Assembly: GCA_037043015.1 (NCBI GenBank)
Contig: CM073321.1
Span: 1,555,001 to 1,619,000, forward strand
Source: Bryum argenteum
Taxonomy: Eukaryota > Streptophyta > Bryopsida > Bryales > Bryaceae
Length of the DNA: 64,000 nt
Reading direction: 5' to 3'
The notes under the pieces were generated by a model, which made no database searches, was not told where the DNA came from, and worked only from the letters and a program-made list of their open reading frames with translations. The position numbers were made by a program, and so were the translations under genes. This document shows positions 6,189 through 63,570 of this stretch, piece after piece (positions within the stretch are counted from its first letter, which is position 1; each line of letters starts with the position of its first letter).

Positions 6189-6822
6189 TTACGAACTGCC
6201 GTTCGTAAGTTGACGAACTGCAGTTCGTTAACTTACGAACTGCAGTTCGTTGAATTAAGATCTGGAGTTCGTCTTTTTTATATGAAGGGATCCGCAAATA
6301 CTGTGTCACGTCAGACCGGAACAACACACTTACATTTCAATGTAACCGACAGTTCACGATATACGAACTACCGTTCGTAAAGTATAGCACGCTTGAAATG
6401 CAACAATAGTTTTCGCTTCTCTGTTAAGTGTTGAAGTGCTTTTGCTCCGAATTTTGAATCCTTGCGGAGTAGCACTTGCCGCGTTTGGCAGTAGTAAAAG
6501 TTTTACGACCTCTCCTTTGTAATCACAATTTGAATGTTGTTGTCACGCACCTTTCTAATACTAGAGGGAGCTTCGCTGTGTTGATGGCCGGTATCAATTT
6601 TACCTGAATCATTGTGGAGGCCAAAGCAATTTGGATTTACGAACTGTAGTTCGCTAATGGCAGCTTTGAGGTTGAGGCGATCGATATGAAATTCTGGGTA
6701 TAGGTCAAGTTGGTGGATGATCGATGGAGTTTTTCTTTAGCGATGCACTGGACGCAATGCATTGATTGTGAATGCAATGTCTGCTTCCTATGATAACGAA
6801 CTTATGAACTGTGCTTCGTACC
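6189..6822. repeat. Palindrome family E, about 7 dispersed copies
   Basis: The consensus is TTACGAACTGCAGTTCGTAA. Good copies lie at 6189-6208, 6213-6228 and 6235-6250; weaker ones at about 6261, 6362-6380, 6637-6656 and 6803-6820. Flanking DNA between copies is unrelated, so the palindrome itself is the repeated unit. All copies fall in the presumed first intron of the element E transposase gene. I found none in the part of E right of 27415. Confidence 0.85.
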
Positions 6823-7012
6823 GCCTGCATCAATTTTAGTGTCGTCCGAGCACCTTCAATGTTTGCATCCTTAGCGGTCCGCACATGCAGTAGTGTCAAA
6901 TTTAGATTGAGTAGGAGAGCGCTGGTCTGGATGCGATTACGTGCAGGATAGCGTCGGTAATTAAGATTACGAATAACTAATGGAAGCAGAGGCATTGTTG
7001 TGTGTTGTGTAG

Positions 7013-7031
7013 GTCCTGGTGTTCAAGGTAT
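7013..7031 (+). pseudogene. Left part of the element E transposase exon cut by element A
   Basis: These 19 bases after a tgtgttgtgtag acceptor are the left fragment of an exon that continues at 27415. In the frame beginning CCT-GGT-GTT-CAA the reading passes through the GTAT duplication and stays open to the donor after 27494. The open junction shows that the insertion hit a coding exon and dates element A as younger than element E. Confidence 0.7.
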
Positions 7032-7055
7032 AACCTCGTATTCGTTATAATGGGA
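7032..7055 (+). repeat. Left terminal inverted repeat of element A
   Basis: It reads AACCTCGTATTCGTTATA followed by ATGGGA. It matches the reverse complement of 27391-27414 at 23 of 24 positions. The preceding four bases GTAT (7028-7031) are repeated after the right terminus. Confidence 0.9.
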
Positions 7056-7454
7056 GAAGAACAATCTCCCAAATTAATACATGGAGTTCAATGGAGCTAA
7101 AATTCACTCAGTTATTGGCCACACCGTAAGCATATGTATTATGAAAATAAAATTTCCATTAAATTGGGAGGTCCACTTAGATCAAAACATTATGTAGAAA
7201 GCATGACATGAGATGAAGAAAATAAAACAGAGTGATTAAGACCCTTGTGTTAGCAATATGATAAGCACTTATCGTAGATTGGATCAACATCGTAATATGA
7301 AGAATTGGATTGCATCAACCCATAATTTGAATATATAATAGGAAATGAACAAAATACAGTATAATATGTAATTCACTTACGACTATATATTAGAATACAA
7401 ACTAAAGGGTCTAAGAGTCGGCTATCGGATGCGTAGAGCATCATTGATGGAATA

Positions 7455-10361
7455 CTACTCTTCTGAAGATGTGGCAAGTTCTCCCAAAGAGGCCTTTATG
7501 ATATTGATTTGAATTTCAGGTATTGAAATAGTCATATCTTGCCCCATTCCGTCGTCCCCCCTAGGTTGCCTTGTTCTAGATTTCCATGCTGTGAAAATGG
7601 CATCCGTACTTTGAGATGAAACGTCGACGCCTCTCTCCACCGTCCAACGTAGCTTTTTGTTTACATCCCAACCTGTATAATACTTTTGAACATCCCTATC
7701 CCGTGATATGGGACGAAAAAACTGGATTTCTACGGTATTAGGTAAGTCTGGGTTTGAATTTGGATCAGACATAGCACGCCCTATCCAAAATGGACGGCCA
7801 TCTGTGCCACATGGACGTAGTGCAACAAAATATCCCTTGTAAAGGTCACGTCCAACTCGGAATGACGGAGCTGGTCGATTACGTCTTTGACCTACAAAGT
7901 GGTCGTCCTCGCCGTACTCTTCACAAAGTGTCCCCTCCAATGTAAACTCATCTTCTACAGCATGCGCGAGACGAGTTGATGGCCAAAACTCATGTTCCAA
8001 CTCCGGAGCTTCTTCAAGAGTTGACGGGATACCAGGCTGCTCGGATATTAGTGTATCCATAGGTATTCAAAGAGCTTCCTTTACGTTGCTCCAATAGTAT
8101 GAGAGAGGCTCATACAGTCGCCTTGATTCGATTGACTCACGTGATGATCGCTCCCAATGGTCAACAAATCCTGAAACTCCTTTCACAATCTCCGGCAAAT
8201 GACGATCCGCATTGGTCGCATGACTTGTGGTACCCCCCTAGGCCATAGCGATCTACCCTCTGAATCCTCCTTCCATAACTTAATGCCCCCCTCATCACCT
8301 CTAGGAAGCCATTCATCGTCATGGCAAAGAATTTTGTACTTCATAACCGGGCACCCACGTGCATCGAGGAAGAACTTGAACTGATGCGCTTTTGTATGTC
8401 CAACCAATGCTTCATCACCCTCCAAAGAACCACTCTTGAATGAAAGATTTGAAGTTAGGAACCTCTTGAACGAGGTGAGGAATGACAGAAGTGACTCTAG
8501 CTTCATGAAAGATTTCATGAGAAGAGGGATAGTAGGATAATCCTCCTTATGCAAAGCCATGCTCCAACGACCAAATAATGCATCTATGTCATCATGAGTG
8601 TGACCAACTAGCATAAAATTAACATATACTTCTCGAAATACCCGTTTGGCTACGAGAAAGGACCAGAAACTGAAGACAAACCTATTTTTGTTGTCACTAA
8701 CAGCATTGTCCATTTGTACATTTAATATAGGGGGCAATGGCCTAGGTGGAACCAAAATGTTTGGAATCGGGCCAAGTGGATCCAAACACATCTCTGAACC
8801 ATGAAGAAGAGCTGCGTAAAGAGGATGCAAAGATGCCTCTGTAAAAAGTTGTCTGGAGGAGGATTTCGGCGGAGCCTCCCGGATCGCGTGGCGACTTTCG
8901 CAAATGACCCCACAAAGTGTAATTTGCATCATGTGAGAAAATATCTAATCCAAAATGCGCATAGCGCTGATCTACATGTCCATGAGCTAAAATGCACATT
9001 CTTTGCTAGAGGCAATTTCATAAGACCATCTAAGTTCTTCACCTTGTGGGATAAGGCAGGGGAGGCTGTCTTCGAGTGGTCCATCTTGTCATGCATAATA
9101 GTAAGAACCTCATGAGGCATTGTCTTCGACCTAAAACGATTGAGGTAATACAAATCCCTATGAGCAAACGCCGAGTCCAAGTGCGCACTTAGTTTCCTCG
9201 ACCATAAAAGTGCAGATTGACTTCCTGGTAAGGTGAGCTTCATCAAGGAGTCAAATTCATGACACTTTGAGCACCGTGCGAAATTTTCTCCTGCCCTCTT
9301 CGCGTAGTACTCAGGATAGCTTAGTCGGCGGATTTTGCTAATGCTTGAAGCTGACACTGGTGGAAGCCCGCATTCAGCAAGATGTTCGCATATAGGCGGA
9401 ATCTGATTTTTCCACTTAAAACTTGCAGGAAGTATCTTCGTTACAACCTTCTCCCCTGAGGAGAGGCTATGAGACTTGTGAGGCATGTGGTCAGCATGCC
9501 TAGCAAGTAATGCGCCCAAGACAAAGAGGCTACAACAAGATGACCCCGGCTTTCGTTTTCCAAAGATTCCCATGATGTTGGGCTTGAACCCAAAGAACAA
9601 GCGTTCAAAGCGTTGCGATAAAAGACGCTAGAACTAACACCCATAATTTGCATCCACGCTAACGGACATACGTCTATGCCTTCAAGTGTCACCACATTCC
9701 GCCCATTAGCGTTGGTATGAAATTGTCGATGAACATCTAATTTGATGTGATTTACGAACCGCATCATTGTGTGTTTTCATACATGCGAGACCTAAGAATC
9801 TTTATCTTGTCTCTAGGGTAGTGTTGGACACGATTTTCGGCTACAACAAGTATTCGATGCGACTTCGTTGATTGACTCGCCGAGTCAACAAGTTTTTGCT
9901 CTGAGGTGTCTTTGGAGTAGGAACATTCCTTTTGGAATTGTCATACGTCGAGTCGTCTACCATTGACCCGACCTGTTCTTTAACCCATCGGTTGTACACA
10001 TCCCACCCGGGTATGGTGCAATGAGACTTACACCGTCCAAAAGAACTCGATCAATGGGCCACGACTTGAAGGAGTAAATCCAGTCGTCAGGATTGTCCAC
10101 AGGCACAAACAAAGTTGAAATTTGCACAACAATAACCGATTCACCAAGGGGTCCAGAAGTATCAGTAAGGGCACTGGATCGTAAATTCCGAGGTAAACCT
10201 TCAGCAATTTTGAGACCATCACTGTCAAGTAACGCCACAGTTCTTCCCGACCAGAGCCGAGGTGGAACAACCTCAAACTCTGGAATATCCGGATTCTCTG
10301 GTGGAACAACGGACTCCTCCTCAGCGGATGAGGTGTCCATGCTGCAGATGCACAAGAACAT
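7455..10361 (-). pseudogene. Element A transposase (DUF7869-type), multiply frameshifted
   Basis: From the 5' side (right) it has a DUF8039-like segment at 10361-10028 (VALLDSDGLKIAEG, then YSFKSWPIDRVLLDG), a gap, then the transposase core. Recognisable motifs are IMHDKMDHSKT (about 9090), VQMDNAVSDNKN (about 8700) and LVGHTHDDIDALFGRW (about 8600-8570), the three acidic clusters of the DUF7869 group and presumed RNase-H-like catalytic residues. The C-terminal part (8060-7455) aligns with element E (GRDLYKGYFVALRPCG against GRDILKGFLVFVRPAEG). Compared with E and B, the frame shifts near 9600, 9000, 8920 and 8195, with an in-frame TGA just before 8060, so it is a pseudogene. Transcription would start in the centre of the element and cross the left palindrome array. 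Confidence 0.85.
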
Positions 10362-10639: not shown

Positions 10640-12050
10640 TAACGCTAATTAGTTCCAATCGAGCTAAACGCCTCGAAGAATTGATTGATAAACAGAATAG
10701 TTGGACTCCAAGTAAACTTCTTAGCGAAAATGAGTTTGACAGTTTAGCTAGAATGGAGCTAACACTTTCAGTATCGATTATGCTGCAATTTAGCTCGAAT
10801 CGAGCTAACCGACGTAGTATCGGATGCCTTAGTTACACTTTAGCTCGACTCGAGCTAAACTTATCAACTACAATATATCTTAGCTTTAGCTCGAGTCGAG
10901 ACGGTAAACCATCTTATACAAATCAAGTCCAAATTTAATTCTTGGACTAGGTAATTTGGATTATTCACCTTGACTCGAGCTTAAGTGTTCGACTTTCAGA
11001 GGTCGTATACTTTAGCTCGAATCGAGCTAAATTGCTCGAGTTTGCTAAGTCTCAGCTTTCAAGAGTCTGTAATGTAATCAGTTAGTTTAGCTCGAATCGA
11101 GCTAAACTTCACAGTCTAAGGATTTAACTAATTACATCAGTTCTCTTTTCTATATCGGTAAATTCTGACTTTCTTAGAGTCACATTTTAGCTTGACTCGA
11201 GCAAAACTGAGTTACATACTGGGAGACTTTGAATCTTTAGATTAGCTCGACTCGAGCTAAACTTACCAGATTTCAAAGGCTTGTAATGAAATCGTTAAGT
11301 TTAGCTCGAATCGAGCTAAACTTCGTACTTGGAGAATTAGAATATATACATTAACTCACTCTTCTTTTTAAGTAAATTCAGACACACTTAGGGTCACAGT
11401 TTAGCTCGAATCGAGCTAAACTCAGTTACATATTGGGCGAGGTTGATACCTCAGTTTAGCTCGACACGAGCTAAACTTACCAGATATCAAATGATTGTAA
11501 TGAAATCGTTAAGTTTAGCTCAACTCGAACTAAACTTCATAGTTTGAGGATTAGAATGTTTTCATTATCTCACTCTTCTATTTAGGTAAATTCAGACATA
11601 CTTAGGGGCACAGTTTAGCTCGAGTCGAGCTAAACTGAGTTACATATTGGGCGAGTGGGGTGCCTTAGTTTAGCTCGACTCGAGCTAAACTGAATGGGTT
11701 TCAATTTTCTCAAAAGTAAACGTCTAATTTACCTCGAGTCGAGCTAAACTGAGGCACAGTTTGCGCCAGCTGGATTATGTAGTTTAGCTCGACTCGAGCT
11801 AAACTGGTTAGCTTTCAACAAACTCTATTGAACGTGTAGTTTAGCTCGAATCGAGCTAAACATTTATGTCTACAATTAGTCATAGTTTAGCTCGAGTCGA
11901 GCTAAATCGCTCAACTTTGCAAATTCCTATAGTTTAGCTCGAGTCGAGCTAAATTACTCGACTATACAAGCCCCGCAATTTAGCTCGATTCGAGCTAAAT
12001 CAAGGCACACATTGGTAGTTACGGTATTTAGCTCGACTCGAGCTAAATGT
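10640..12050. repeat. Palindrome family A, left array (about 23 copies)
   Basis: Each copy is half-site TTTAGCTCGA, one free base, and the reverse complement of the half-site. Clean copies occur at about 10841, 11011, 11086, 11243, 11300, 11400, 11613, 11669, 11781, 11840, 11886, 11934, 11979 and 12028; others carry one to three changes. Spacing alternates about 55, 58 and 100 bp, forming a higher-order unit near 210 bp. The array is the reverse complement of the right array (18566-20240), spacers included. It lies upstream of the minus-strand transposase coding part, probably in its leader or first intron. Confidence 0.97.
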
Positions 12051-12755
12051 CTTCACTCTTTCTCTCCGATAATCACAAATAGCATATTTCGAGTACCGCT
12101 TCTCCTAATTCTCTCAAAAGCAATAGGTTTGCACTCGAGACGGATGCATTGAAAATGAAGGCTTGCATGCACTTACATTGAAAACACACAATCTTAAGCA
12201 TCACAAAGAAAGGCGTCCCACGACGCATGTGGAACGCTTCTCAGGTTTAGGGTTTATGACGCCGAAATTGAATTGTAAAATGCAAGAAGCACGTCACGAT
12301 ACCGAGACACACAATTCAATAAACGCCATATGCGTGGAGTCTTACCTTGACGCTTGTGTGGAGCACATCTTGATCCCTACGTGCAGCGTGCTGGAATCTG
12401 AAACGCCGACGGAGCCCGAAACCGCGAAGGAGGAGCATCACCTTCAGAAAATGAGGAAAAAGGAATCAACATGGCCACGTTCTCAGAGGTCATTCAGATT
12501 CGTCTGGCCTTTCCCGCGCTCCACCTTATCTCGAGATGAGGCGGGAAATACAAATGCGATTTGTCAGGAAAATCGGTGGTGAGATTCCGGCGGGAAAATT
12601 TCTTCTCCCTATATTTCTACATAGAAGTAGCATCCGCGAATTCAAGCGGGAATCCACCCGCCATTCCTGCCTACTGCGACAAATTCTGTACATTCCTGCT
12701 ACAAGATCAATCGTAATATTACACTCATTGGCCGAAATAGGCTTCCAATGAAAGT
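12050..12755. other. Palindrome-free, GC-richer flank of the element A centre
   Basis: The palindromes stop abruptly at 12048. This segment has mixed composition with no gene I can support; an open frame at 12163-12582 has no recognisable motif or splice support and is probably chance. By analogy with B, the divergent promoter of the minus-strand transposase should be here. I see no clear TATA box. Confidence 0.4.
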
Positions 12756-13560
12756 ATGCATTTCAAAGTTATCATGCCATTATTGACCATGCAATTAAAA
12801 GTTAGGCATACTCAAATACTCTAAGTTTGAAAGTTATAATATTCTAAGTTAGTAATACTCATTTTCACCGTAGTTAGGAAATAAATTTGTAATGTTCTAT
12901 TAAATGAATAGAGAAACGAGTAATTTAATTGTTTTTATGGACATTGAGGATGATGTGTATTGCTTAATGTGATTGGATTCTTTATTAGTCTCACTACATG
13001 GGGTTTTATTGCATGTAGATATAGTATGTTTCACATGTCAAATTGAATGGATATATTGTATATAATGGATTGTAATTATTCATCTTTAGTCTTCACATGG
13101 GTGTTTTTTAAGCGTTTTGTGGCATTCCAAAGTCCCTCATATTGAATACATTTAATATGAGTATTAATCATAGTGTGTCATGTTTCGTAAAAAATTTGGT
13201 TTTATATATGATTCATTGTCAATATGAAAGAGTTTCCTCAAAAACATAGAAATATTGAATTCTCAAAAATAACAAACTGAAACAATTTGACTACCAATCT
13301 CAACGCAATATTAACTTAAGTGCATAAAAAATTGTATCAAAATGTAAAACTCCAAATAAATATGCTACTTCATAAAAGGCCTTCAACTTGCTTTGCAACA
13401 AATAATATAAATCATATATTAATACATCAAAATCAAGGTATGAATGTATGGAATATAATGTATTCAACGGGTAATATTCTGAAAACTATATACAGAATTT
13501 TAGCAAAATTGTTAGCTTAAGGTATAACAACATGGAAAAATAACTAAATTGCACCATTCT
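12755..13560. other. AT-rich centre of element A, no gene seen
   Basis: This is low-complexity AT-rich DNA with no open frame of note, no repeats of clear period and no palindrome-family members. Confidence 0.5.
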
Positions 13561-13570
13561 GCACACAACA

Positions 13571-13690
13571 TAAACCCTAAACCCTGAATCCTAAACCCTA
13601 AACCCCAAACCCTAAACCCTAAACCCTAAACCCTGAATCCTAAACCCTAAACCCTAAACCCTAAACCCTAAAACCAAACCCCTATATCCT
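13571..13690. repeat. Interstitial telomere-type repeat (CCCTAAA)n
   Basis: About 15 units of CCCTAAA with interruptions such as CCCTGAATC and CCCCAAACC, degrading toward 13740. It lies inside element A, so it is not a chromosome end. A longer TTTAGGG tract in opposite orientation lies at 63.6-63.9 kb. Confidence 0.95.
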
Positions 13691-13740
13691 AAACTCCAAA
13701 ACTCTAAATCCGAAACACTATACTGTGAATCCTCAATACT

Positions 13741-14948
13741 TAACTTGGATTGCTATTGTAAGCATCACATACAACATGTACAGCATTACGAAAACTTTAA
13801 TTTGTACGTTTGCTATCACTCATAATTTTAGGCTTTTGTTCATCTAATCATCTTGCGAGAGCAAGTCTATATTCTTAATTATTTATGCTAGGTTTTATGC
13901 TCCAAGTTAAGTAACTTTGATAGAAAGTCTTAAATTATCTATCAATTTGTGTGCAAATAGTTAGAATACCTTGCTATGTTACATCAAAGCATAAATCAAA
14001 ATATTTGGTCAATTATAGGTGACCTTATGTCAATGATTTCTAATAAAGAAATTGAAACGAAATAATCATCTTAAGTGAAATAGATCCTTACATTTATAAC
14101 GGACATTAATGTACTATGATCACCCTTTAATGTGAAATGTGCTCATTATCCCAAATTAATATTTTAAGTACTTTATCCTCATCTAAGCTATTTAGTTTAA
14201 ATTATATACGAACGTAAATAGTTATTAGTAATAAATAATAATATCATTATAATTGTAGTTAACTATAACCATGCTATAAGATGATAACGTTCAAAATTAT
14301 AATTAAATTTTGCACTATATTCATAATGATGTTAAATAACGTACTATAAATTACTATACATAATGTATTCCTATAATAATGTATTAAATAGGCATAATTA
14401 CCAATATAGGAAATATTATATATTTGTAATAAATCCTATACTTGTACATGTAATTTCTATGTAAAGGTATGTTTGGAATACATGGCATTATTTGGAAATA
14501 TGTAGTGATTACTCATGGACAAAAGTTAGAAACCAATAAAACCTATTATACTTGAATGCAATACTTTTGTACCTTGTGATTTCCAAACATTGGAAAATAA
14601 ACCACGTACGAAGATTTGAATTCAAGAGTGATACTTATGTACATTAAAATGATTGGACAAATCTTGGAAATTAAACACTTAAATCTTTATTAAAGAATAC
14701 TACGTATGTATAGCATATACTAATTAAAAAGTAATAATGATTTCACATATTAAATATTGTGCTAGGGAAAACTAGGCACATGTCAAGGAATAACGAAATT
14801 TAAAATTTAAACCACAACCAATTCTTTAAAATTCGAATCTCAACGTATTTCTTATAGCATTATTTAAAAAATATCCATAAAAAACTTGCTGTGCCTTTAG
14901 CCGACAGTCTACAGTAGCAACTACCTGATTGACTCAATGGAGGAACCA
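13741..14948. other. AT-rich centre of element A, no gene seen
   Basis: Strongly AT-rich with many short A/T runs. I see no gene, tandem repeat or palindrome-family member. Confidence 0.5.
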
Positions 14949-15127
14949 AGTGGGAGCGGAATCACGGTGATCAATCCTACAATGATCTATCGATGAAACG
15001 ATTGTAGCACCAACTCCGCGGAGGGGAGCAGCCTCCAAGTGCTCGATTCGCTACGCAGGGGCCAATTCTAGGTGTGACTCCTGCCTCTTTACGTGTAATT
15101 AGGGTTAAAGTAATTCCGCTCCCACTT
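14949..15127. repeat. Small foldback (MITE-like) with 15-bp perfect inverted repeats
   Basis: AAGTGGGAGCGGAAT at 14949-14963 is matched by its reverse complement at 15113-15127, and the match extends imperfectly inward (AAT-nAC). The 150 bp between them are GC-richer than the surroundings. I cannot define a convincing target-site duplication, so element status is tentative. Confidence 0.5.
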
Positions 15128-15365
15128 AATCAATTGCGGTAACTACATTGCGCACGGTGCTTGAGCAAGCTCGTCATGGATACGGTTTCCCCACGGTGTT
15201 TCACACGGCACTTCGAAGCACTTGGCAAATAGACGCGTCTTAAATTAACATGGTTGAAAATGAACATGGTTGAAATTGGTGACTAGAATCGCAATGTAAA
15301 TTTCACATACTAAAAATAGAGTACACAATATTAAACATCAAATTAGTTCCAACAAATTGACAAGA

Positions 15366-16555: not shown

Positions 16556-16674
16556 CTCAAAAGAAGACGAGTACTGAAAGATCACGAATGAATTAAAATT
16601 TAGAAGTTAGAAAATATGAATACGAGTACTAAATTCAAGTGGAAAATGGTGGAATAAATCAAATTTTTTAAAAA

Positions 16675-16760
16675 TGATTCCCTCGGCAGTAATGAAAGCC
16701 TCGGCAGTAAAAATGATGGCCTCGGCAGTTAAAATGATGGCCTCGGTAGTAATCATGATG
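16675..16760. repeat. Short direct repeat gcctcggcagtaaaaatgatg, 4 copies
   Basis: Four consecutive units of about 20 bp differ at one to three positions. They lie between the 93-bp array and a CT-rich, GC-rich stretch that may be the leader of one of the divergent element A genes. CTGCCGAGGC-like words also occur in the chromovirus LTR; I cannot show common origin. Confidence 0.75.
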
Positions 16761-18494: not shown

Positions 18495-18565
18495 GTGCTA
18501 AGTCAAAAACTTGCAAGACCGAAACCACCTCTAACTCTGTAGAAATGGATACGGTGATGCTAAAA

Positions 18566-50490: not shown

Positions 50491-50519
50491 ACATGCAACA
50501 CAGAAACAATTAGGTGTGA

Positions 50520-52014: not shown

Positions 52015-55000
52015 CTACACCGACGTCTGGAACAAACCTCCAGTTTGCCGGGTCCGCTTCGGAGAAGCCTGCGCACATCGAATAGGAGACAACTCCTCGT
52101 TCGGCGAGTCCAACGCAGCCGCATTGGGCGGGAAAAGCTCAGCATTGGGGTCTGCATCGACAATGCGCTTGCGGGCTTGCGTGCGGCCACCACTTCCTGC
52201 TGCATGTGTGGAAGATGTCGGCTGGCAGCCGACAGGTAAACGGCCGGCTGAGGACCTCGAGGCCGAACGCCTCCCATCGTGAGGGCCGGAAGATCGAGCG
52301 CTCCTGGACTGTGAGTTCAAGTCGAGAGTGATAACCTCGTCAACAGGCTCACTCCGCAAGTCAACTTCCATAGACGCTCCTCCCGCATCACGCACAGCAA
52401 GGTCCCGTTCCGCCGAAGCATCGGTTTCCCGGGCGAACGAATGGTCGACATGGACAGAGTCACCACGAGAGCCGGAACTCGCGGTAGAGGCGCTAAGGTT
52501 CTTCCCTGGCGTGATCGGACATCCAGCCGGCTGCATCGGTGAAGGAGATCGGGTCTCATCGTCCTGTCGGCCGCCGGCCGATACATCGAATCCGGACGCA
52601 GCAGTCGCTTGAGGGGCGGAGTCCAAATCAGCCGCCTCATCCATGTGAACGTCCCCATCATCCTGTCGGCCACCGGCCGATATAGCTCTTCTCTGCATGG
52701 GTGCGTGGTCAGGGCTACCTTCAGAAGACGAAATAGGGAATACGACTCGGTCTAGATTCATTCCCCGAACCCGATCCTCCGCCATCCTAACATCCTCTTC
52801 AGATCGAACGAACTCCAGAACTGGTCTGCCATTCCTCTGCGATTCACAAAAAACAGAAAGTTAGAGATGTATCGGCCGGCAGCCGATAAGTACAGACACT
52901 CCAAAAGAGAGGAAAAAAATTAACGGAATGAAATGTATCGGCCGGCAGCCGATAACTCCAGACACTCAAAGGAGAAGGAAAAAAGCAACGGAATGAAATG
53001 TATCGGCCGGCAGCCGATACATACAGAAAACCAAACAAAATAGGCGAGAAGCTTACCAATGCAATCTCGGTGATGTTCCCACCACCCCAGATATTGATGA
53101 GGGTCGTCCGCTTCGAGCGGAGAACTGGTTTCAGGAACTTCTCCAGCGTCACGTGATCAACTCCGCAGCAACCACGGTTCCAGTCGACAGCTCCTTCCGG
53201 GCACTCCTGGAACCACTCGATCGGCTTTTGAATCCCTGTGAATTTCTTGAAGACCCTCAAGATGCTGTCGTCTGACCCAGTCTTCGGATAGGTGATCGAC
53301 AACGTGACGAGCGGAGAAGCGTCGAGCTCAAACCTCTTGAAGCCAGCGCGCGCGGAGGGCTTGTAGTCGACTGAATGCGCAGCCCAAGTCGCCGTAGCAC
53401 AGCGCCAGATGGAAGCAAGTAGATCCCGCTGCTTCGAGGTGCCGATAAAGAACATCGGCACAGGAATGTCCGGCTTAATCGGGGCGACATCCTCATCATC
53501 ATCCTCGAAAAGATCCAATGCGTCGCTCCCAGTGTCGACGGTTGCGGCCTTCACGATAGCAAACAGCTCGGTCCGGTTGACCACAACGGGCTCCCCAGAG
53601 GGCGTGTAGCAAAAAAGAACAAAAACCTTGGGGTCCCTTGTGATAACGGCATTGCGGGTTGCGTCCTCGACCATAGCAAGGACGTCGTCGATGGCGTCAG
53701 CACTCTTGCAGACGTAAGTGAGGCAATCCCTGGTTGACGCCACCCCGCCCGCAACGTGAACGGTGGTGTAGGTCTCCAAAATCTCGGAGAAGATGGCCGG
53801 CGCAATCCCGTTTTTCGACTTATCGGTGGTGGGATTCATGGGATTCACACGACCATTTAGCCACTCGTTCCCTGCCGTGACCTTCTTCAGGTCCGTCCAT
53901 ATATTCCTGACGAGATCTAGTGTCAGGTTCTTCTCGCGGGCTAGCTCGTCCCACATGTCATCAGTGTAAGGGACCCAGTTTGCATCCTTGCAGGGTAGAG
54001 GGTGGCCCTTCAACTTCCACATGAGCTCATTCATGATTACTCGGTCGAGCTTCTTGTCGCGACACCAGTCCTGCAGCGTAAGCATCTCCTTCGTCTTGCT
54101 GTTTGACTTGATGCAGACCTTCTTCGCGATAATCTCCTTCGCGAGGCTGATGAGGTCGGAGTCCCGTAGCCCAAGCGTCGGAACGAGGTCCGACTTCGTG
54201 ATCTCCGTCAGTGGCAGGCGGGGAACGACACCAGGCTCAATGCCGTCATCGGCGATCAGCTCTCCGGCCTCCCAGGCGTTGAAAACTTCAATCCAGCTAT
54301 TCCACGCCTCGTCACCGGCGAAGACGAGAGGCAGCTTACTGGTTGACTTCTCGGAGACGAAGTGCGCCATCACTTGTGCCTTGGCAAGCTGCAGCGAACA
54401 AGGAATATAAGAGCAGTAACAGATGAAATATTACTGTATCGGCCGGTGGCCGATACCAACAAAACTTCAATTAAGTCAAGGAATAAATATATTAGCAAGA
54501 AGGTATCGGCCACCGGCCGATACCAACAAAACTTCAATTAAGACAAAGAAAAAATATCATAGCAAGAAAGTATCGGCCGCCGGCCGATACCGAGAAGAAG
54601 ACATACCTCGTACTCCTTGGACCTCTTTCCACCTCCACGGTGGGGTTGCGGACGACCCGCTCGGATCCATGCCCCACGCCCGAGCTCAGCGCAAGAACAA
54701 AAATTCTCCCTCGCAACCTTCTCCGCAATGTTCAGGTTAAGCGCGTTGGAGACGCGAACTAGCTGCCGCGGATCCTTGTTGTAGACAGGGATCACTTCAA
54801 ACTCCAGAAGCTCCTTATAAGCATCCGAGTCTTTCGGAAATGTGTCCGCGAGCTCCCGGCAAGCAGTGACGGTGTGCTGCCCCCCAATGATGTACCAGTG
54901 AGTAGACGGGTTCTCCCACCACGGAACTTTTGTCCCGTCAGGCATGGTAAACATCTCGGTCTCCGCGGGCATGTAGTCCATGACCGCATCCATACCAGAA

Positions 55001-56945
55001 TCCGTGGCGAGGGGTTTCCGCTTTAGAGGGATCCCGTGAATCTCTGGCTTCTTCCGGATAGCCCCGTAGCCTTTGTATATGGCCTTCACCTAATAACAAA
55101 GAAGGGAGACATCAGAACAACAGCATAATCTGTATCGGCCGGCGGCCGATAGAAAAGGAAAGATAGGGAGTAGCAAAATATCACAGATAATGAGAAGAGC
55201 ACAATGTATCAGCTGGCGGCCGATACAGAAATACGGAGAGCAAAAGGAAATTCGGATCGTACGTGACCCAGACGCTCCTTCGCTATCCTCTGGTACTTTA
55301 ATTCGTCCGGTGCGATGTGCAGCCTCTCCGACGGAATTACCCCTGGAAGCCGCCTTTTCTTGTAAGGGAATGATGCCAACAAGCCCTTCTCCAACGCCTT
55401 GTAGATGGCGTCGATTTCGGCATCACATGTCTTCGTAGACATGCGATTCCCTCTCTCCAGCGCCTCGTCCAGATCGAGCTCCAAAACCTTGGTCGCTGAC
55501 TTCTTCTTCGAGCGACTGCTCTCCCCAGCCAAGACGGAACGATCCCCGACGCTGACAACCGCGTTGTCAGCGGCACCCGACTCCTTCCTCTTTCGAGCAG
55601 AAGGGACCTTCTTCTTCTGCTTGTCCGCGGCCGCCGCAGCTGCATCGAGGTACTTATTCACCTCGTGCAACGCCCCCCTGAGCATCTCCCAAGAATCCAT
55701 AAAATCATCAACACTCGCTGGAGATGACGTACCAAAGAACATCCCCAGCTTCACAGAGGTCTCTCCGCAGAGTGCCTCCGTGCACTTACTCCACGGCAAG
55801 GATATGGCGATAAAATCTTCCTCCCCTTCAGGTTGGCCGGGCGGCCTAAGGCTGATGAGTAGGTCGACATTCTCCGGAATATTAACGGCCTTCTCAATCG
55901 CCAAGACGGACCCGTGTCCCGGCATGATGTTCCCCTTGACGAGCACGGAGCAGACGACTTCAACCCTCCCCGTCGGCAGATCCTTCCAGTGGAGGCCCCA
56001 AGCATCAATGACCGGAGACCCCAGCCACGCAGCACGAGGAACGACTCCGCCAATTGAAACGTCAGTGACATTGAGGCTGTCCCCGAGAATCTTCTTCAGA
56101 AGTCCCGGCTTCCTGTATCAACAAACGCAAGTAAGAGCGTGTCGGCCGCCGGCCGATACATACCAGTACAGCTGAAAAGAAGTTTAGACCACAACCAGGA
56201 AAGTAAACATGCAAGATGGGATAACATATATCGGCTGCCGGCCGATATGCTGATACATATCGGCTGGCGGCCGATATGCTTATACATATCGGCTGCCGGC
56301 CGATATGCTTATACATATCGGCTGCCGGCCGATATGCTTATACATATCGGCTGCCGGCCGATATGTCAATGCAGTACACAGTGATTTCAATTATCAATAC
56401 ATCCAGCATGAAGATGCCGATACAATGGCATGTATCGGCTGCCAGCCGATAAAACACATATATCGGCTGGCGGCCGATACACATACATAACATGCAGAAG
56501 TACAAATAAATTAAAATGTGGCCTAAAGATTGAGCAAACATATCGGGAGGCATTACAAACGACATATATAACAACATCAATGCATCAACAAATAACCAGG
56601 CAAATACGGCATCTATCGGCTGCCAGCCGATACAACACTTGTATCGGATGGCAGCCGATACACACAAATGTATCGGCTGGCGGCCGATACACACTAATGT
56701 ATCGGCTGGCGGCCGATACACACAAATGTATCGGCTGGCGGCCGATACACACAGATGTATCGGCTGGCGGCCGATACGCACAAACGGGGGATCAATACAG
56801 CAGATAAACACACAGAACACACATATCGGACAGCAGCCGATAGAAAGGATTGTATCGGCTGGCAGCCGATAAAACACTTCTATCGGCTGGCGGCCGATAG
56901 AAATAACTAAGAAGAGCAGAGGGCTTACCTTGCGGATTCTGCCAT
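52015..56945 (-). CDS. Element B ParB-like / methyltransferase-like gene, intact over 5 exons
   Basis: Exons 56945-56929 (ATG start), 56112-55263, 55089-54607, 54388-53057 and 52836-52015 join at GT-AG sites without breaking the frame: 1167 codons plus TAG. Exon 2: N-terminal domain and Ala/Lys-rich linker (AAAAAADKQKKK). Exon 3: ParB/sulfiredoxin-like core, HWYIIGGQHTVTACREL (about 54910-54855), then LEFEVIPVYNKDP and RVSNALNLN. Exon 4: methyltransferase-like domain with no recognisable DPPY, ending LINIWGGGNITEIAL, a motif I-like Gly loop; exon 5 continues RNGRPVLEFVRSEED (motif II region), then a long disordered tail. The order (motif I last) is that of permuted beta-class N6/N4 methyltransferases. 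Missing motif IV suggests DNA binding without methylation. Introns, the 5' region and the tail exon all carry family-B palindromes. Confidence 0.8.
52210..52690 (-). repeat. Family-B palindromes inside the coding tail of the ParB-MTase gene
   Basis: Copies at about 52218, 52566 and 52666 lie within the open tail exon. On the coding strand two of them encode ISAGGRQDD and VSAGGRQDD, and the third encodes LPVGCQPT. The palindrome therefore entered (or arose in) coding sequence without breaking the frame. Confidence 0.9.
52860..55225. repeat. Family-B palindromes in introns of the ParB-MTase gene
   Basis: Copies at about 52869, 52937 and 53000 (intron 4), 54438, 54504 and 54570 (intron 3), and 55133 and 55207 (intron 2). 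Consensus TATCGGCYGSCRGCCGATA. In introns 3 and 4 they come with short shared flanks, giving units of about 65 bp. Confidence 0.95.
56139..56900. repeat. Family-B palindrome array in the first intron of the ParB-MTase gene
   Basis: About 17 copies. Five at 56229-56363 repeat every 29 bp (19-bp palindrome plus a 10-bp spacer such as tgcttataca), and six at 56642-56800 again every 29 bp with another spacer (cacacaaatg). Others lie at 56139, 56434, 56461, 56613, 56825, 56853 and 56881. All lie between donor 56928 and acceptor 56113. Confidence 0.97.
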
Positions 56946-57870
56946 TGCTGTCAAGTTGTATCGGCTGCTCTGACGCGGATGTCGGCCGATTAGGGTTTCG
57001 CTCCCACCACGTATCGGCTGCTCCACTCCAAGTATCGACTGCTACGCTCCACGTATCGGCTGCTACGCTCCACGTATCGGCTGCTGCTACTTCACTCCGC
57101 GTCGGCTGGCTGCAAAATTCCGTGTCGGCTGCCGTCGGAGAGAAAAAACAGGAGACAAGAATAGAAGAGAGGATGCGCGGAAAAGAGGGGAGCGGAGAGG
57201 TGCGCGGAGGAGGGAGAGAGAAGTGGAGAGGAAGAGTGGAAATGAGAGAGAAATGGGGGGGGGAAGGGGGTATTACCCCCCCCTCTTGAAATGACGGGTC
57301 GCGTCGCTTTCAATGAGGCGGCGTGCCTGCCCGCGATCGTGTCCGTCTGCCCGCGCCTGCCCGCTCCTGCCCGTCTTCTGCGCGACTGCTGCCCGCGGAA
57401 AGATTCGGCTGCCCGCCGCCAAAACGTCACGAATCATTGCTTGCTCCTCCCCTGCTCTCCATTCAAATTTCTAATTTCTTGATTTTTGAAATCTTCTTGA
57501 TTTTTGAAATTTTCTTGATTTGGGCGCCATTTCCTGAGTGGAGTAGGCTTAGGGTACCCATTCACTCCCATTTTTCACATTTCTCTCTCCCTCTCTCCCT
57601 CTCTCTCCTCATCTTTGTCCGTCCCGTCCCCTCGCTCTCCTCTTCATCTTCACTTACATTTGCTAATTGTCTAGAGGCCGTGGCATCAACTCTAATTTCT
57701 CTGTTTTAGATATTTCGACATTGTTTTTGCGTCGAATATTCGAGAATATTCACAGATTAGTTTTGGATCCCCAAGCTGTAGCTTTTACAATAACGCCGGC
57801 CGATATCGTGCTCTCATCAGCCGATATAATTTAGGTCATAATTACCAGAATTCTAGGCCTTTGTCTGACC
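56946..57870. promoter_or_regulatory. Element B centre: probable divergent promoter region
   Basis: Half-palindromes (tatcggctgc words) fade out by 57130. The stretch 57150-57470 is G-rich then CCCGC-rich, and 57470-57720 is CT-rich with leader-like character; no full family-B palindrome occurs from 57130 to 57870. The start codons of the two units (56945 minus, 58496 plus) face away from it. No TATA box is clear. Open frames here are compositional. Confidence 0.55.
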
Positions 57871-57874
57871 AGCC

Positions 57875-58460
57875 GATATAATTTTCTGTCCAGCCGATAT
57901 AATTTCATTGATCTATTGTATCGGCTGCCGGCCGATACATTGCTCTTGATCCCCAAACCCAGTCGTGGAAGCTGTATCGGCTGCCGGCCGATACATTGTT
58001 CTCGATCCCCAATCCCAGTCATGGAAGCTATATCGGCTGCCGGCCGATACAGTGTTCTCGGTCCCCAATCCCAATCGTGAAAAGTCAGACGGGTGGCCCG
58101 ATACATTTGTTCTCCATCCCCAATCCCGATCGTGGAAGTCGTCGGCGGGCGCGGCCCGATCGGTGTTCTCTTTCACCCACACCAAGACTAGAAGTCAGAC
58201 GGCGGCCGGCCGATCTGATGTTAGCGATCGGCCGTCCAACTCAGCTCTTATCTGTATCGGCTGCCAGCCGATATTACTTCCTCACCCTCTCTGTCCGTAG
58301 CCGTATCGGCTGCCGGCCGATACTTTTGTTTCACCTTTGGTCTGCTCTTCGCGGTATAACTGTTCAGTAATTGTAGCTGTGTCGGCCGCCGGCCGATACT
58401 ATTTTAGGAAATCCACATTCTAGCTCTTCTAACTGTATCGGCTGCCGGCCGATACTCTCC
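57875..58460. repeat. Family-B palindrome array upstream of the transposase start
   Basis: About 10 copies (57920, 57976, 58031, 58200, 58255, 58303, 58380, 58437 and degenerate ones), partly as 55-60-bp tandem units with the spacer word gatccccaatcccagtc. The array ends 36 bp before the ATG at 58496, so it lies in the transposase leader or first intron. Confidence 0.95.
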
Positions 58461-58495
58461 TACTTTCGGACTAGGATAACTTGTAGATCACGGAA

Positions 58496-60429
58496 ATGAA
58501 GCGTCTGCTCCCATCAGTTCTGGAAACTGAACCGATTGACTCTTTCACTAGGAATGGTGGGTCGGGTAGATGGATGATAGCTAAGGACGTCGTTGTCGCG
58601 TTAACCCACGCCGGATCAGATACGCCCCGTCGCGCTGCTATCAAGAAGAATGCGCGTCGAGACCCCTCCCTGCTAGAGGTCCTTGTTCTGGATGTAGCAA
58701 GTAATATCGAGATGATTATACCATTTCCCACGGACGATTTGAAGCTTCTTAGTCAGTGCGTTGGTAAGAGAATCATCTGGGAGGAGCGATATGTGAGGCC
58801 TCTAATTGATGAATTAGATTCTGTCCCAAAACCTATCGGCTGGCGGCCGATACCTGAGAGTATTGAAGAGAAGCCCATCGAGGAGTTCCTAACTCTTACC
58901 GTGAACATGGAGGTTGCGCTTCTGCACATCGATCAGTCTGCACATCACTGCGCTGGAGTTGGACTGATAGTCGAGTGCTCCCCGAAAGGAACATGGGAGG
59001 GGTTCCGTGTCCCGCACAGCTTTTTTGTCGTTGTTCAGCTTCTGAAGATATGTAAGGACTTTGAAGGAATTACCGCTTACTGTGAGGAGCCAGCTTTCAC
59101 TACCCTAGGTGACTGTCTTGGGCTCAACATCCTCTGGAGTGGATACAAGGTCCGACCTGTTCAACTGATGACTGCTCCTGTCACACCTATCGGCTGCCAG
59201 CCCATACCCCCTGCTTTGAAGAAGGTCAAGCTCGAGGATCACGGTGCTGAGCTTTCCGACTCCCCGCCCTCTACCGATTTTTGTGGCGCCCGCCACCCGT
59301 TTCTGGCGAAAGCAGGTTTTTCGAGCGCAATGATGATGGTGGGTCCTCCACCAACTCTCATGTAGGGAATCAGGATCCTCCTCTCCCTACATGTCCCGAC
59401 GTCAACCACAGCCCTGTACCAACCCAGCATCGCTCACCTTGTCCCAGCGTTGGATCGGAAGGACATGGAGCGTCGGAGGGTGTTGGGTACACATCCCCAC
59501 CGTCTAATGCCAGTGATGTCGACGCGGGTCTTGAATCGGGTCTTCCTTGTCTTGACCGACCGCTCTGGCGAAACAAGTGTTGTGACTTGTTGAATGAAGA
59601 TCTATCCTTCTTTGGTAGGGCAATGATTCAGGTCTGCCTTCCAGACGAAGCATGCGATGAGAATGTTCTCGGAGATACTGATGTTGGTGTCATGTTTCTG
59701 TCGGACGACGCTGCCCTTCAAATGACAATACTGCGTTGGCCCCTATCGCGGACAAGGCTTGACTGCGGCCAACTTCTCTCTGATATTGTTATTTCCTGCT
59801 CAGCTGCTGGTCAGAAGGAGACCCCTGACCGCCCTGGTCTCCAAGGCGTCCCTCGAAACCCTTACAGGTCTGTGCGTCGAAAGATCTTATCCAAGGATCC
59901 GAAGGCGGGGTCCAGATCCAAACTTAAGACCTCCGACGACGAGGTTCGAAAGGTTAGTTCTCAGAAATGCTGCAAGGATCGATGCTGTCAAACGTTCCCG
60001 TGGGAGTCCACGAGAACCCTCCGACGCAAATTCTATGCTTGCTCTTTTGAGGCCAGAAGGGAGATCGCTTATGCAGTCCAGAAGCAGCTTAATGTTCGCA
60101 CCCCCGGAGGCAGGAGGTTCATTACTCTCGAATGCGTGGATGTCTGCGAGAATGCCTGGTACATCATTCACGGTGTCTCCCGGTCTGCTTACCACGTCTA
60201 CAAAGCAGCCGCTATCTCAGGGTCCGTTAGCGGTTCTCATGGTAATGCAGGAACGCTTCGACCGCGGCCGCGAACCATTCAAGCTCGTGCGACATTGAAG
60301 AAGATCATTGACGAGAACGCTGACCAGATGCCGAATGAGTTCAGACTCGTCGGGAACAAGCGTGTCGATAACCTCAAAGTTGTCCCCTCCACGATGAGCT
60401 GGGACCACATGCGCGGCCAAGTCAACGAT
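58496..60429 (+). CDS. Element B transposase, N-terminal exon (one apparent frameshift)
   Basis: From ATG 58496 it encodes two related blocks resembling DUF8039-type modules: one around DDLKLLSQCVGKRIIW-YVRPL and one around TLGDCLGLNILWSGYKVRP. Each is followed by a family-B palindrome in frame (PIGWRPIP at 58833; PIGCQPIP at 59190). The frame changes between 59281 and 59365; the next frame holds SQKCCKDRCCQTFPWE (about 59955), a Cys cluster shared with element E. The exon ends VND at a GAT/GTAAGC donor (60430). The frameshift may be real or an assembly error; a 17-base intron would be needed to explain it by splicing and is implausible. Confidence 0.75.
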
Positions 60430-60661
60430 GTAAGCTACAACATTCGCACTTTCCTTCACCCTGTTTCTTCGTCATTTCCCGAATTTCATTCCTAGAGTCG
60501 ACAAAGTTTAGATGCATTCTGTGTATCGGCCGCCGGCCGATACAATCAGTATTCAGTACTACATGCGTTCTCGAACTTATCATCCGCTATGCCTATCGGC
60601 TGCCGGCCGATATGTTTTCCTTCCCCCTGTTCTAACTGCAGTTTTGCATCATGATCTGTAG
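60430..60661 (+). other. Intron of the element B transposase with two family-B palindromes
   Basis: It runs GTAAGC..CTGTAG with palindromes at about 60525 and 60595. Its position in the protein equals the intron at 28717-28817 of element E. Confidence 0.85.
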
Positions 60662-62671
60662 GTTAATCTGAAGTGTAACATGGCGCCTGTCTCTCAGTCC
60701 ACGATTAGTCAGCTCCGGAAGTCTCACTTTAAGAATGTGGACGTCAAGGCCGTTGGATCTAGCTTCTCCAAGTGCATCGAGTGTGACTTTCTTGTTGAAT
60801 GCATAGCCAAATATCCGAGAGGCTCCGATGAGTGGCAATCACTTGTCGACGACAGGGAGCGGCATCTTAATTATCAACGTGCTTGTCGGAATATCTACGC
60901 GGGTTGGAGTACGCAGTCTATGCAGAATCCATCTGAGTTCTTGTGCATTATTCACGACAAGATGGACACGACGAAGACCGCCATTCCGAGGATGCAGAGG
61001 ATCACGAAGGCTACCGCAGGCCTTGGTCAGATACCCATTTCGATCACGGGGATGCTAACTCACTGCCACGGTGACGGTGCCTATGCACACTATTCTACTG
61101 CTCTCTGGCCAGGTGATTCCAATTTTACTATATCCTCGCTCTGTCGGGTCCTCCGCGCCCTCGAGCGACCGCCTGTTCGCGACTCGAAGGTGCTCTTTCC
61201 GACACCCCCGCAGAATAGTTTCTTCGAGGCGCTGCTCCATGGCAAATCGAGATGTTTCTCTTCAATTCCGCCCTCCACCGGGGTCGCCATGGACCCACCA
61301 CTCCCTGGTCGCCCTGCTGTTCCTCTTCCTAGGAAGCTTTTCTTACAGCTTGATAACTCTGCCAAAGACAACAAGAACAGATTCGTGATGGCCTTCTGTT
61401 CCTTGCTTACTGCGAGGCGCATATTCAAGGAAGTCACTGTTGGATTCCTAATAGTTGGACATACTCACGAGGACATTGATGCTCATTTCAGCTACTTGTC
61501 CAAGCTTATCAAGAGGAAGAACACCTACGTGGTTGCAGATCTCATGAAGGCTTTTATGGACTCCCAGAAGACCGTCGCTTTTATTCCTGAATTTGTCCAG
61601 GAGGTGGCAGATTTCAAATCCTATGTCAAGGACTTCCATCACGATGGTGTCAACAAGATTGTCGGACTCGGTGATATGCATCTCTTCAAGTTCTTTGTTG
61701 AGGAGGAGGGACCGGATCGTGGTTGGCCGGTCATGAGGTACAAGAAGCAATCTACTGATTCGTCTTGGCTCCCTCCGGGTCCTCCTATCAGGATGTGGAC
61801 TCAGGACTCACACGGCAGACCACGGCTTCCTTCTGGTGATCCACGTCCTGTACCATTCAAGCCTTTATGGGGGGTTACGGACGTTAATCCTCGAAAGCTG
61901 AATTCAGAGAAGGAGCAAGCTCGCGCTTCAGAGTGCAAGGAGAAGCAGGGTTTCATCAGAAATGGTATTGCAAAGTTCATCGAGTTCTGGAAGATGGGCA
62001 TGGCTCGAAATAGAAAATACTGTGAGGAGATGGCTGGCTCCGTTGGGTACTGGGAGCGAATCAACGCGGAGATCAACTCACCACTTCCGGTTGCGTCCGC
62101 GTCGCCCGTCGAGGGGTTCTGGCCGCTTTCTGACTGGTCCCGTGATCATGCTCGTCTTGAATCTCAATCTGGTTCTCCTCTGTCATCTTCGCCAGATGTT
62201 ACACCTGAGGATGATCCCGACCCTTACCCATATTGTGGTCCAGCAAAGGGCAGACCACGGATGAATTTTAATCCGTTCAGGGACGTTCTTCTTGGTGACT
62301 TTGTTCTCTGTCGTCCTTGCGATAACCACTACCTTCCTGTGTGGCTTGGTCGTGTTCTAGAATGTGTCGAGCTTTCGCCGGGAGTTAACTACGGGAACTT
62401 TAAGGTGGAATGGTGGACTCCAATGCGATCAAAGAAGGAGGCCAAGTCTCTGGTTGCGAGGGAGTGCTGGTCGCGCCGTTGGCACAGGGAGCCCTGTCTC
62501 CCCCAAGTTGTCAACGTCAGCATCGTTTTATTCTCGCATCGAATGCCCTCCCATGCCAGGAATGGGCCACCTGCTACTCACGTCATTCCTGATGCATCCG
62601 CCGCTGCTGCACTTGCAAACCTTGAAGCCGCAGGTGCTGTTATGGTGTGCGAGGATGATGCCGAGAACTGA
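60662..62671 (+). CDS. Element B transposase, DUF7869-type catalytic exon, intact
   Basis: 670 codons open to TGA. Motifs: VGSSFSKCIECDF (Zn-like), IIHDKMDTTKTAIPRM (60950-60997), ITGMLTHCHGDGAYAHY, LQLDNSAKDNKNRF (about 61341), VGHTHEDIDAHFS (61454-61492), then HLFKFFVEE and RGWPVMRY, and VEGFWPLSDW. The three acidic clusters fit the RNase-H-like DDD/E layout proposed for this group; I infer that they catalyse strand transfer. The C-terminal half (FRDVLLGDFVLCRPC, YLPVWLGRVLE, FKVEWWTP) is shared with A, C and E and looks like a separate beta-rich domain. It is the best candidate active transposase in the window. Confidence 0.88.
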   Translation, partial: VNLKCNMAPVSQSTISQLRKSHFKNVDVKAVGSSFSKCIECDFLVECIAKYPRGSDEWQSLVDDRERHLNYQRACRNIYAGWSTQSMQNPSEFLCIIHDKMDTTKTAIPRMQRITKATAGLGQIPISITGMLTHCHGDGAYAHYSTALWPGDSNFTISSLCRVLRALERPPVRDSKVLFPTPPQNSFFEALLHGKSRCFSSIPPSTGVAMDPPLPGRPAVPLPRKLFLQLDNSAKDNKNRFVMAFCSLLTARRIFKEVTVGFLIVGHTHEDIDAHFSYLSKLIKRKNTYVVADLMKAFMDSQKTVAFIPEFVQEVADFKSYVKDFHHDGVNKIVGLGDMHLFKFFVEEEGPDRGWPVMRYKKQSTDSSWLPPGPPIRMWTQDSHGRPRLPSGDPRPVPFKPLWGVTDVNPRKLNSEKEQARASECKEKQGFIRNGIAKFIEFWKMGMARNRKYCEEMAGSVGYWERINAEINSPLPVASASPVEGFWPLSDWSRDHARLESQSGSPLSSSPDVTPEDDPDPYPYCGPAKGRPRMNFNPFRDVLLGDFVLCRPCDNHYLPVWLGRVLECVELSPGVNYGNFKVEWWTPMRSKKEAKSLVARECWSRRWHREPCLPQVVNVSIVLFSHRMPSHARNGPPATHVIPDASAAAALANLEAAGAVMVCEDDAEN

Positions 62672-62689
62672 TATGCACTGTACCTGGTT

Positions 62690-63570
62690 ATATCGGCTGT
62701 CGGCCGACATATTTTCGTAGTGCTGCATGGGGATTCTTGTGATTTGTACTTCGACATGCCAATGGTGATCTGGACGTGATGATGCTTTCGCCGGTATCGG
62801 CTGCCGGCCGACATGTCTATGTAGTGCTGTATGAGATGTGCTGATTCTGTATCGGCTGCCGGCCGACATGTCTTCGAAGTGCTGGAATTCGCTGGTATCG
62901 GCTGCCGGCCGACATATCTTTGTAGTGCTGTATGTCGCCGGTATCGGCTGCCGGCCGACATGTCTTTCGCCGGTATCGGCTGCCGGCTGACATGTTTTCA
63001 GTGAACATCTCAGGATGGTTCCTGTTCCTTGGTCTTAGTACAGCGTCAGTCTTATGATGCTGGAGGCTCGCCCTCATATTCTTAGTCCCATGCAACAAGG
63101 AGATACAGATAAGGATCACTACTGCGTTGCAGCAATCATCGGCCGCCGGCCGACGTACTCTGCACAGGCATTCTTTTAGATTAGTTTCTAGCTACCATGA
63201 CAACTAACCGTTGTTGGAATAGCCGGCTGTGTATTGGGTTCTTATCGGCTGCCAGCCGATACGCCACTCACTTAGCATGCTAGTATCTTTGGTCATATTG
63301 AATTTTTTAAACTTGTACGTTTTTACTCTATACTAATTTCGTATGATTACATTCATCAATTTTTTTTGCCTCACTCTGTTCGATATGCTTTTGGGCACCC
63401 GCCGCATTTGCAATTTACCTCGCTTCTTACATGTGTGTTTCTTATGTCATGGTCTCATCATATCGGCTGCCCTCCGATACCACATGATAACCATGAGGTT
63501 TCATGATATCGGCTGCCCTCCGATACCACATGATATCCATTAGGTGGCATCATATCGGCTGCCATCCGAT
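62690..63570. repeat. Family-B palindromes in the transposase 3' flank
   Basis: About 12 copies: 62691, 62794, 62849, 62894, 62941, 62975, 63139, 63243, 63461, 63505 and 63553, plus a degenerate one at 63910. Many here read ..GGCCGACATG at the right end, a local variant, and are embedded in 45-60-bp units with tagtgctgtatg spacers. Later ones (gctgccctccgatac) are decayed in one arm. Confidence 0.95.

Follow-up and report, generated by a model that had tools for sequence, protein, structure and literature searches.

Element-specific palindromes in DUF7869 transposons of Bryum argenteum and their possible recognition by an accessory protein of the element

A stretch of 64,000 nucleotides from the genome of Bryum argenteum (C1:1555001-1619000, hereafter the window) raises a simple question: why would several mobile elements lying side by side each carry a short palindrome of its own in many copies, and which protein would recognize it? 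These elements encode DUF7869, a putative transposase, and two of them, A and B, each have two more genes: a divergent one, called accessory here, with a ParB-like GQH motif, and one that resembles C-terminal-domain (CTD) phosphatases. A previous interpretation made from the letters alone (the sequence-only reading) had described four palindrome families, A, B, C and E, each confined to one element, and had supposed that they are bound by the ParB-like protein of the element. Using searches of the window and of the whole genome (258.8 Mb in 25 contigs), we find that the palindromes are real and element-specific. It seems that every element family marks itself in this way so that a protein of its own can recognize it.

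Sites were counted in the window as matches to each consensus with up to four mismatches, with three Markov shuffles as controls. Family A (TTTAGCTCGANTCGAGCTAAA) comprises 44 exact sites and 58 sites in all, every one within 10648-26734, and family B (TATCGGCYGSCRGCCGATA) 31 exact sites and 58 in all, every one within 49681-63926. Twelve sites of family C lie at 35802-41003, together with two stray matches at four mismatches near 58.2 and 61.2 kb, and seven sites of family E at 6190-6820. The shuffles gave no match to A, B or E, and 0, 1 and 4 matches to C at four mismatches. The four families are therefore present where they had been reported, far above the shuffles; the copy number of about 70 proposed for B was somewhat high. 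Perfect palindromes (arm of at least 8, gap 0-3) number 140 in the window versus 1-12 in 20 shuffles, matches being counted per gap size so that one odd-length site may count twice, in window and shuffles alike. Two further families were found outside the window: F (TTATCGTCGRNYCGACGATAA), with 25 sites at up to five mismatches in C1:222-237 kb, and G (GGGTGRGCACATGCYCACCC), with 16 sites at up to three mismatches in C3:4168-4188 kb, where they separate a DUF7869 gene from a divergent gene containing GQH. Genome-wide, exact sites amount to 5878 for A, 538 for B, 139 forward and 143 reverse for C, 158 for E and 82 for F, and the reversed-pattern control gave 0 in each case. De novo clustering recovered families A, B, F and G and did not recover C or E. 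As a separate observation, at least 50 of the 82 F sites lie in the first 23.65 Mb (9% of the genome) of contig C1 (44 Mb), whereas E has only 4 there among the first 50 sites listed; C1 may be a special chromosome, for example a sex or repeat-rich one.

The half-sites are conserved, and the centre base is free. Over the 58 A sites, the information content is 1.7-2.0 bits in the 20 half-site columns and 0.0 at the centre; it is 0.8-1.0 for the two bases bordering each side and at most 0.5 in the flanks farther out. The half-site values are inflated in part since sites were chosen by match, which is not the case for the centre and the flanks. When element A of the window is compared with W5, one of seven other A-site clusters that we examined on C1 (W1-W7), 7 of 294 site positions differ, versus 221 of 2659 other noncoding positions (Fisher p 7e-5) and 144 of 4264 coding ones; these differences affect 4 of 14 centre bases and 3 of 280 non-centre positions. 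Likewise, within a 214-bp array, 17 of 189 comparisons show a difference in palindromes, versus 117 of 453 outside them. The sequence-only reading had held the palindrome itself to be selected or spread; this lower divergence, between copies of A and within an array, indicates that the palindrome itself is kept under selection. One could nevertheless assume that a chance palindrome has been amplified neutrally with tandem repeats. Indeed, many A sites are held in tandem units of 202-214 bp with related flanks, so that part of their spread is tandem duplication; the earlier statement that flanks are mostly unrelated is thus valid from one array to another and fails within these units. However, palindromes are less diverged than flanks in the very same arrays as well as between copies, and one core is found in unrelated contexts, which makes neutral amplification hardly credible.

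To which elements do these sites belong? Terminal inverted repeats (TIRs) and a 4-bp target site duplication (TSD) were found at both ends of A, of B and of copy W1 (C1:201626-220197), whose ends are related to those of A and whose TSD is CTAT, as in cut-and-paste DNA transposons. These ends (Table 1) replace the boundaries drawn previously. The similarity of A to W5 stops at 27415; in W4, W5 and W7, a clear end could be seen only on the far side of the phosphatase gene. Every A site (58) and every B site with up to three mismatches (56) falls inside the limits of A and B, respectively. The E sites (6.19-6.82 kb) are outside A, and the DUF7869 gene of the E element is found just past the right end of A. 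A 98% identical copy of this gene, at C4:5540679, is 2.18 kb from exact E sites. In the window, the corresponding distance is 22.57 kb, which becomes 2.19 kb once the 20,383 bases of A are subtracted. Since the two distances then agree, A is most likely nested within the E element, whose ParB-like partner would lie left of the window. Another DUF7869 gene, at 7.5-9.9 kb, had been attributed to E; this assignment is ruled out by its position within the inverted ends of A and by its similarity to A-site copies, its main matches being 66-76% identical to the DUF7869 genes of W1, W2 and W7.

The palindromes occupy particular places with respect to the genes. In A, the DUF7869 and accessory genes are divergent, with an array just upstream of each and, between them, a 6.5-kb spacer containing telomere-like and 93-bp repeats. 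Ten further sites are in presumed introns (introns being deduced from breaks between conserved reading frames), one precedes the phosphatase-like gene and one is near the right end. Family F has the same layout, presumed introns included, and G sites sit between two divergent genes. According to approximate gene models, 0 of 58 A sites and 2 of 56 B sites are coding; the coding count leaves out 3 B sites that fall in 52018-52860, an open reading frame (ORF) of uncertain status, and 4 that fall in the tails of ORFs. Element B consists of the three genes of A in compact form.

This organization recurs in other copies. Ten A-site clusters are listed on C1:0-1.31 Mb, of which three with 1-2 sites were left aside. 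Relatives of the accessory gene are present in all seven examined clusters, with 31-97% identity in the long exon, a figure valid in one direction since the clusters were picked for holding palindromes. In five of the seven (W1, W2, W3, W6 and W7), a DUF7869 gene is divergent with palindromes at both gene starts; no DUF7869 gene was found in the stretch read for W4 and W5. The phosphatase-like gene recurs in six further clusters (W1 and W3-W7), with a match at 33% in W2. Stops break the accessory gene in several A copies, whereas the matched pieces of W5 and W7 are free of them. Between A copies, values similar to dN/dS are 0.28, 0.76 and 0.37 for the first, third and fourth pieces of the accessory gene and 0.24 for the phosphatase-like gene, on few changes.

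Such a placement bears on two other explanations. First, the palindromes could be operators for self-regulation only, the accessory protein repressing or activating the three genes with silencing unaffected. The presence of A sites upstream of all three genes (10.6-12.0, 18.6-20.2 and 24.8 kb) is in keeping with such a role, but about 58 sites, with intron arrays among them, would exceed the needs of a simple operator, and we regard this explanation as possible though doubtful. Second, the sites could be bound by DUF7869 itself, like the subterminal arrays of CACTA or hAT elements, which makes the putative transposase the main rival binder. The outermost B sites do come within 46 bp of the left end and 224 bp of the right end, most B sites being internal. 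In A, however, no site is closer than 3.6 kb to one end and 0.7 kb to the other, and the arrays occupy gene starts and introns, away from the inverted ends; binding by DUF7869 thus appears rather unlikely.

Table 1. Coordinates of elements, genes and arrays (window positions unless a contig is given).
Feature	Position	Strand	Remarks
E palindromes, second cluster	C1:1551770-1551833		left of the window
Element A	7032-27414		TIR AACCTCGTATTCGTTATA at 7032-7049, inverted at 27397-27414; TSD GTAT
DUF7869 gene of A	7458-9878	-	several ORF pieces; PF25273 E 4e-33
A array upstream of DUF7869 gene	10648-12047
Telomere-like CCCTAAA array	13571-13720		spacer between two A arrays
A array upstream of accessory gene	18567-20239
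Accessory gene of A	20477-24670	+	pieces 20477-21330, 21340-21640 (GQH/ParB-like), 21960-23370, 23771-24670; limits approximate
A palindromes in accessory-gene intron	21753-21941		5 copies
A palindromes in next accessory-gene intron	23378-23757		5 copies
A palindrome between accessory and phosphatase-like genes	24784-24804
NIF/FCP1-type CTD phosphatase-like gene of A	25212-26042	+	PF03031 E 2.7e-14
A palindrome near right end	26714-26734
DUF7869 gene of E element	27949-30644	+	PF25273 E 9.7e-39; just past right end of A
DUF7869 gene of C	35971-37948	+	matches over several frames; PF25273 E 1.5e-37
Element B	49635-64150		right end 150 bases past window; TIR AACGGGTATTTAACTAATTATGGACAT at 49635; TSD TCAT
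NIF/FCP1-type phosphatase-like gene of B	49929-51548	-	two pieces, PF03031 E 1.2e-6 and 7e-6
Accessory gene of B	52018-56117	-	GQH/ParB-like piece 54541-55089; downstream domain 53030-54373 (101 matches listed genome-wide); outer limits approximate
DUF7869 gene of B	58496-62668	+	PF25273 E 5.8e-42
Telomere-like GGTTTAG array	63588-63879		right side of B

Other repeats accompany these features. Telomere-like TTTAGGG arrays lie beside palindrome arrays within several elements (in the window; at 5958-5994 of locus L009, 7352-7532 of L011 and 8554-8595 of L017). Tandem arrays of 106-bp units (1262-2254) and 93-bp units (15375-16580) sit in the presumed spacers of E and A, respectively, and 32-bp units are found at 33217-34429. 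A Ty3/Gypsy retroelement of the chromovirus type (42300-48400, minus strand), with reverse transcriptase, RNase H, integrase and chromodomain, is associated with a pair of repeats in the same direction (43842-44075 and 49153-49361). The TTTAGGG-type arrays and the chromovirus would fit a host of the plant lineage.

If the palindromes are recognized by a protein of the element, their type should follow that of the genes. This was evaluated by counting exact sites only, among the matches listed and with the elements of the window included; sites were the first in contig order (100 of 5878 places for A, 50 of 538 for B, 100 of 282 for C, 50 of 158 for E and 50 of 82 for F; the B counts used 29 of the 50) and proteins the best 101-152 matches, so that misses may hide inexact sites. 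B-type and C-type DUF7869 were separated by identity to the C query (51-61% and at least 74% on C1; 49-65% and at least 70% genome-wide). On C1 below 22.64 Mb, 14 of 18 C-type DUF7869 genes are within 12 kb of a C site, where 3.2% would be expected (binomial 4e-18), and 14 of 26 C clusters have a C-type gene. B-type genes are near C sites in 0 of 13 cases and near B sites in 4 of 4 within the listed range. Of the 12 E-type DUF7869 genes, 7 have E sites within 25 kb and 4 within 10 kb; an E-type gene is present in 7 of the 12 E clusters. For the accessory gene itself, the association was examined in B, in F and, in one direction only, in A. B sites are within 2.4 kb of 5 of the 6 B-type accessory genes on C1 up to 5.33 Mb. 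Among F-type accessory genes (at least 70% identity), 10 of 14 are within 15 kb of F sites (10 of 17 at 60% or more), for 2.9% by chance; at this same distance we found 3 of 17 relatives with 44-59% identity and 0 of 20 A-like accessory genes.

These counts argue that one palindrome family goes with each element type and that the palindrome and the genes of the element tend to change in concert. They leave little room for recognition by a protein of the host (a transcription factor or a replication protein, for instance): sister elements of one genome differ in palindrome, in line with the subtype of their genes, and we consider this explanation very improbable. On the other hand, as expected if DUF7869 were the binder, palindrome type also tracks DUF7869 subtype. 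A B-type accessory gene is present within 12 kb of 40 of 59 B-like DUF7869 genes versus 2 of 47 C-type ones, and the two genes, judging from their proximity, form one unit.

Several observations weigh against recognition by the accessory protein. Since the DUF7869 and accessory subtypes travel together, the association cannot tell which one binds. W3 and W6 keep the A core while their accessory proteins are 31-37% identical; in these copies, the core carries a different outer extension (CCATTTAGC). In another locus with a DUF7869 and a GQH gene (W10, C9:10788001-10806000), no non-simple 12-mer reaches three copies in the 18 kb read. Among the sites listed, the B-type accessory locus at C1:1484830 is more than 120 kb from any exact B site, and exact F sites are missing within 15 kb of 4 F-type loci out of 14 (7 of 17 with the identity limit lowered to 60%). 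Similarly, E sites are absent near 5 of 12 E-type DUF7869 genes, and a DUF7869 gene of the corresponding type is absent from 5 of the 12 E clusters and 12 of the 26 C clusters. For C, the window yielded no ParB-like partner. Finally, the accessory domains gave nothing significant and no DNA-binding family against PDB, Pfam, PHROGs and NCBIfam, and structure predictions of DUF7869 and of the A downstream domain were unusable (mean predicted local distance difference test scores of 41 and 31). The pairing of palindrome and protein, favoured by the association of subtypes, is not strictly one-to-one: such divergent proteins share the A core, and W10 shows no repeated motif in the stretch read.

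What, then, is the accessory protein? The accessory proteins of A, W3, F and B have in common a II-x-GQH block, which reads GQR in the window's copy of A, and the W10 protein matches the GQH profile (hhalign 86%, E 5e-6). This motif also exists in phage-contig proteins, which match ParB_N at E 5e-5, below the curated cut-off, and an hhalign comparison gave 74% (E 2.9e-5) over 22 columns. However, ParB_N (PF02195) has no match in the genome at E<=1, and the best direct matches to ParB-named profiles have E values of 0.08 and 0.52. A kinship with ParB is plausible; the earlier "ParB-like" label is weak, the conserved motif being its support. A scan of bacterial and archaeal genomes with the GQH domain of W3 returned 110 pattern matches, none a confirmed relative, and no DUF7869 relative was matched in viral contigs. 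Our literature searches found no paper on DUF7869 and nothing related on palindromic self-recognition.

The second half of the previous annotation, a methyltransferase read by eye, is not supported for A and B. It would make the palindromes targets of self-methylation by a ParB-methyltransferase, as proposed for a Sola1 element of Ectocarpus (excerpts of PMC12477816). Besides this precedent, the genome does have other genes with a DNA methyltransferase motif I. Yet profile searches gave no methyltransferase match in the A, B and F accessory domains, and the position expected for the DPPY motif, judged by eye, reads DFRLVP, DVRNIP or LFCYTP; self-methylation by these proteins is therefore improbable. 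The motif I region, of the N4/N6 type, was seen in loci L035 (1248-1697 and 4170-5072) and L036 (7202-7753), L035 having also a DGNHR motif; these are possible genes of the ParB-methyltransferase type elsewhere in the genome.

Altogether, the structure of the sites, the selection on them, their placement and their association with gene subtypes match a dimeric binder encoded by the element, and the targets of VANC21 in Arabidopsis lie in similar places. We thus lean towards a VANC-like self-recognition of the element by its own accessory protein, which would keep the genes of the element expressed against silencing. The protein with the GQH/ParB-like domain would be the most likely binder, probably as a dimer on two 10-bp half-sites flanking a free centre base. 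With its many copies in introns and ahead of the DUF7869, accessory and phosphatase-like genes, the palindrome would recruit this protein to the noncoding DNA of the element, where it would most likely sustain gene expression in spite of host silencing, as VANC does on VANDAL elements. Each lineage would alter protein and palindrome jointly and so recognize its own kin. A bolder proposal, to be taken as tentative, is that this kin recognition derives from ParB: the protein would load at parS-like palindromes in promoters and introns, coat the chromatin of the element and block silencing, a private "address" per lineage avoiding cross-activation.

One would also wonder what the benefit of such a system could be for the study of transposons. 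One genome holds no fewer than six natural types of palindrome (A, B, C, E, F and G), of which A, B and F are tied to subtypes of the accessory gene. If the accessory protein binds its own palindrome, they would constitute a ready set to study how DNA specificity evolves and how transposons selectively evade silencing. VANC-like self-recognition would then seem to have had more than one origin, the present one relying on different proteins and on sites that are long and symmetric, and a function could be given to the ParB-like accessory genes of giant transposons, which are puzzling so far.

Comparison with known systems helps to situate these elements. The Sola superfamily has a 4-bp TSD, which fits A and B, the likeness being one of TSD length. 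In bacterial ParABS systems, parS sites are short palindromes clustered near the gene of their binder, and the same clustering near the gene of the presumed binder is seen here; unlike them, our elements have dozens of sites each, without a ParB_N match and without a ParA-type match in the 40 window ORFs scanned. En/Spm (through TNPA) and Ac carry subterminal transposase-binding repeats near their ends. They share with our elements arrays of short element-specific sites, but A sites are internal and, for B, some are near the ends and most are internal. Closer is Sola1-1_Ec32 of Ectocarpus, a giant DNA transposon with a ParB-methyltransferase accessory gene opposite to the transposase, for which self-binding was proposed and similar green and red algal genes were cited (excerpts of PMC12477816). 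It resembles our elements by its gene arrangement, its ParB-like domain and the proposed self-binding and differs by its methyltransferase domain, which is not supported here for A, B and F; the word "palindrom" is absent from the main text of that article. The closest parallel is with the VANDAL elements of Arabidopsis, which are Mutator-like and in which, according to excerpts of PMC5735166 and PMC10398659, binding of VANC leads to loss of silencing. In the excerpts of PMC5735166, the VANC21 motif, YAGTATTAY, has 9 bp and is arrayed in one orientation, in the introns of VANC21 and VANB21 and upstream of VANA21. Here the sites are palindromes of about 16-25 bp and the transposase candidate is DUF7869; no VANC domain (DUF1985, DUF287) or Mutator-type transposase was found among the 40 window ORFs scanned against Pfam. 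As far as these excerpts go, binding and hypomethylation have been demonstrated for VANC, whereas our elements are known from their sequence. The two systems nevertheless have in common family-specific short motifs multiplied in noncoding DNA, often in tandem, in accessory-gene introns and ahead of the transposase gene, together with related proteins that have different targets, as demonstrated for VANC.

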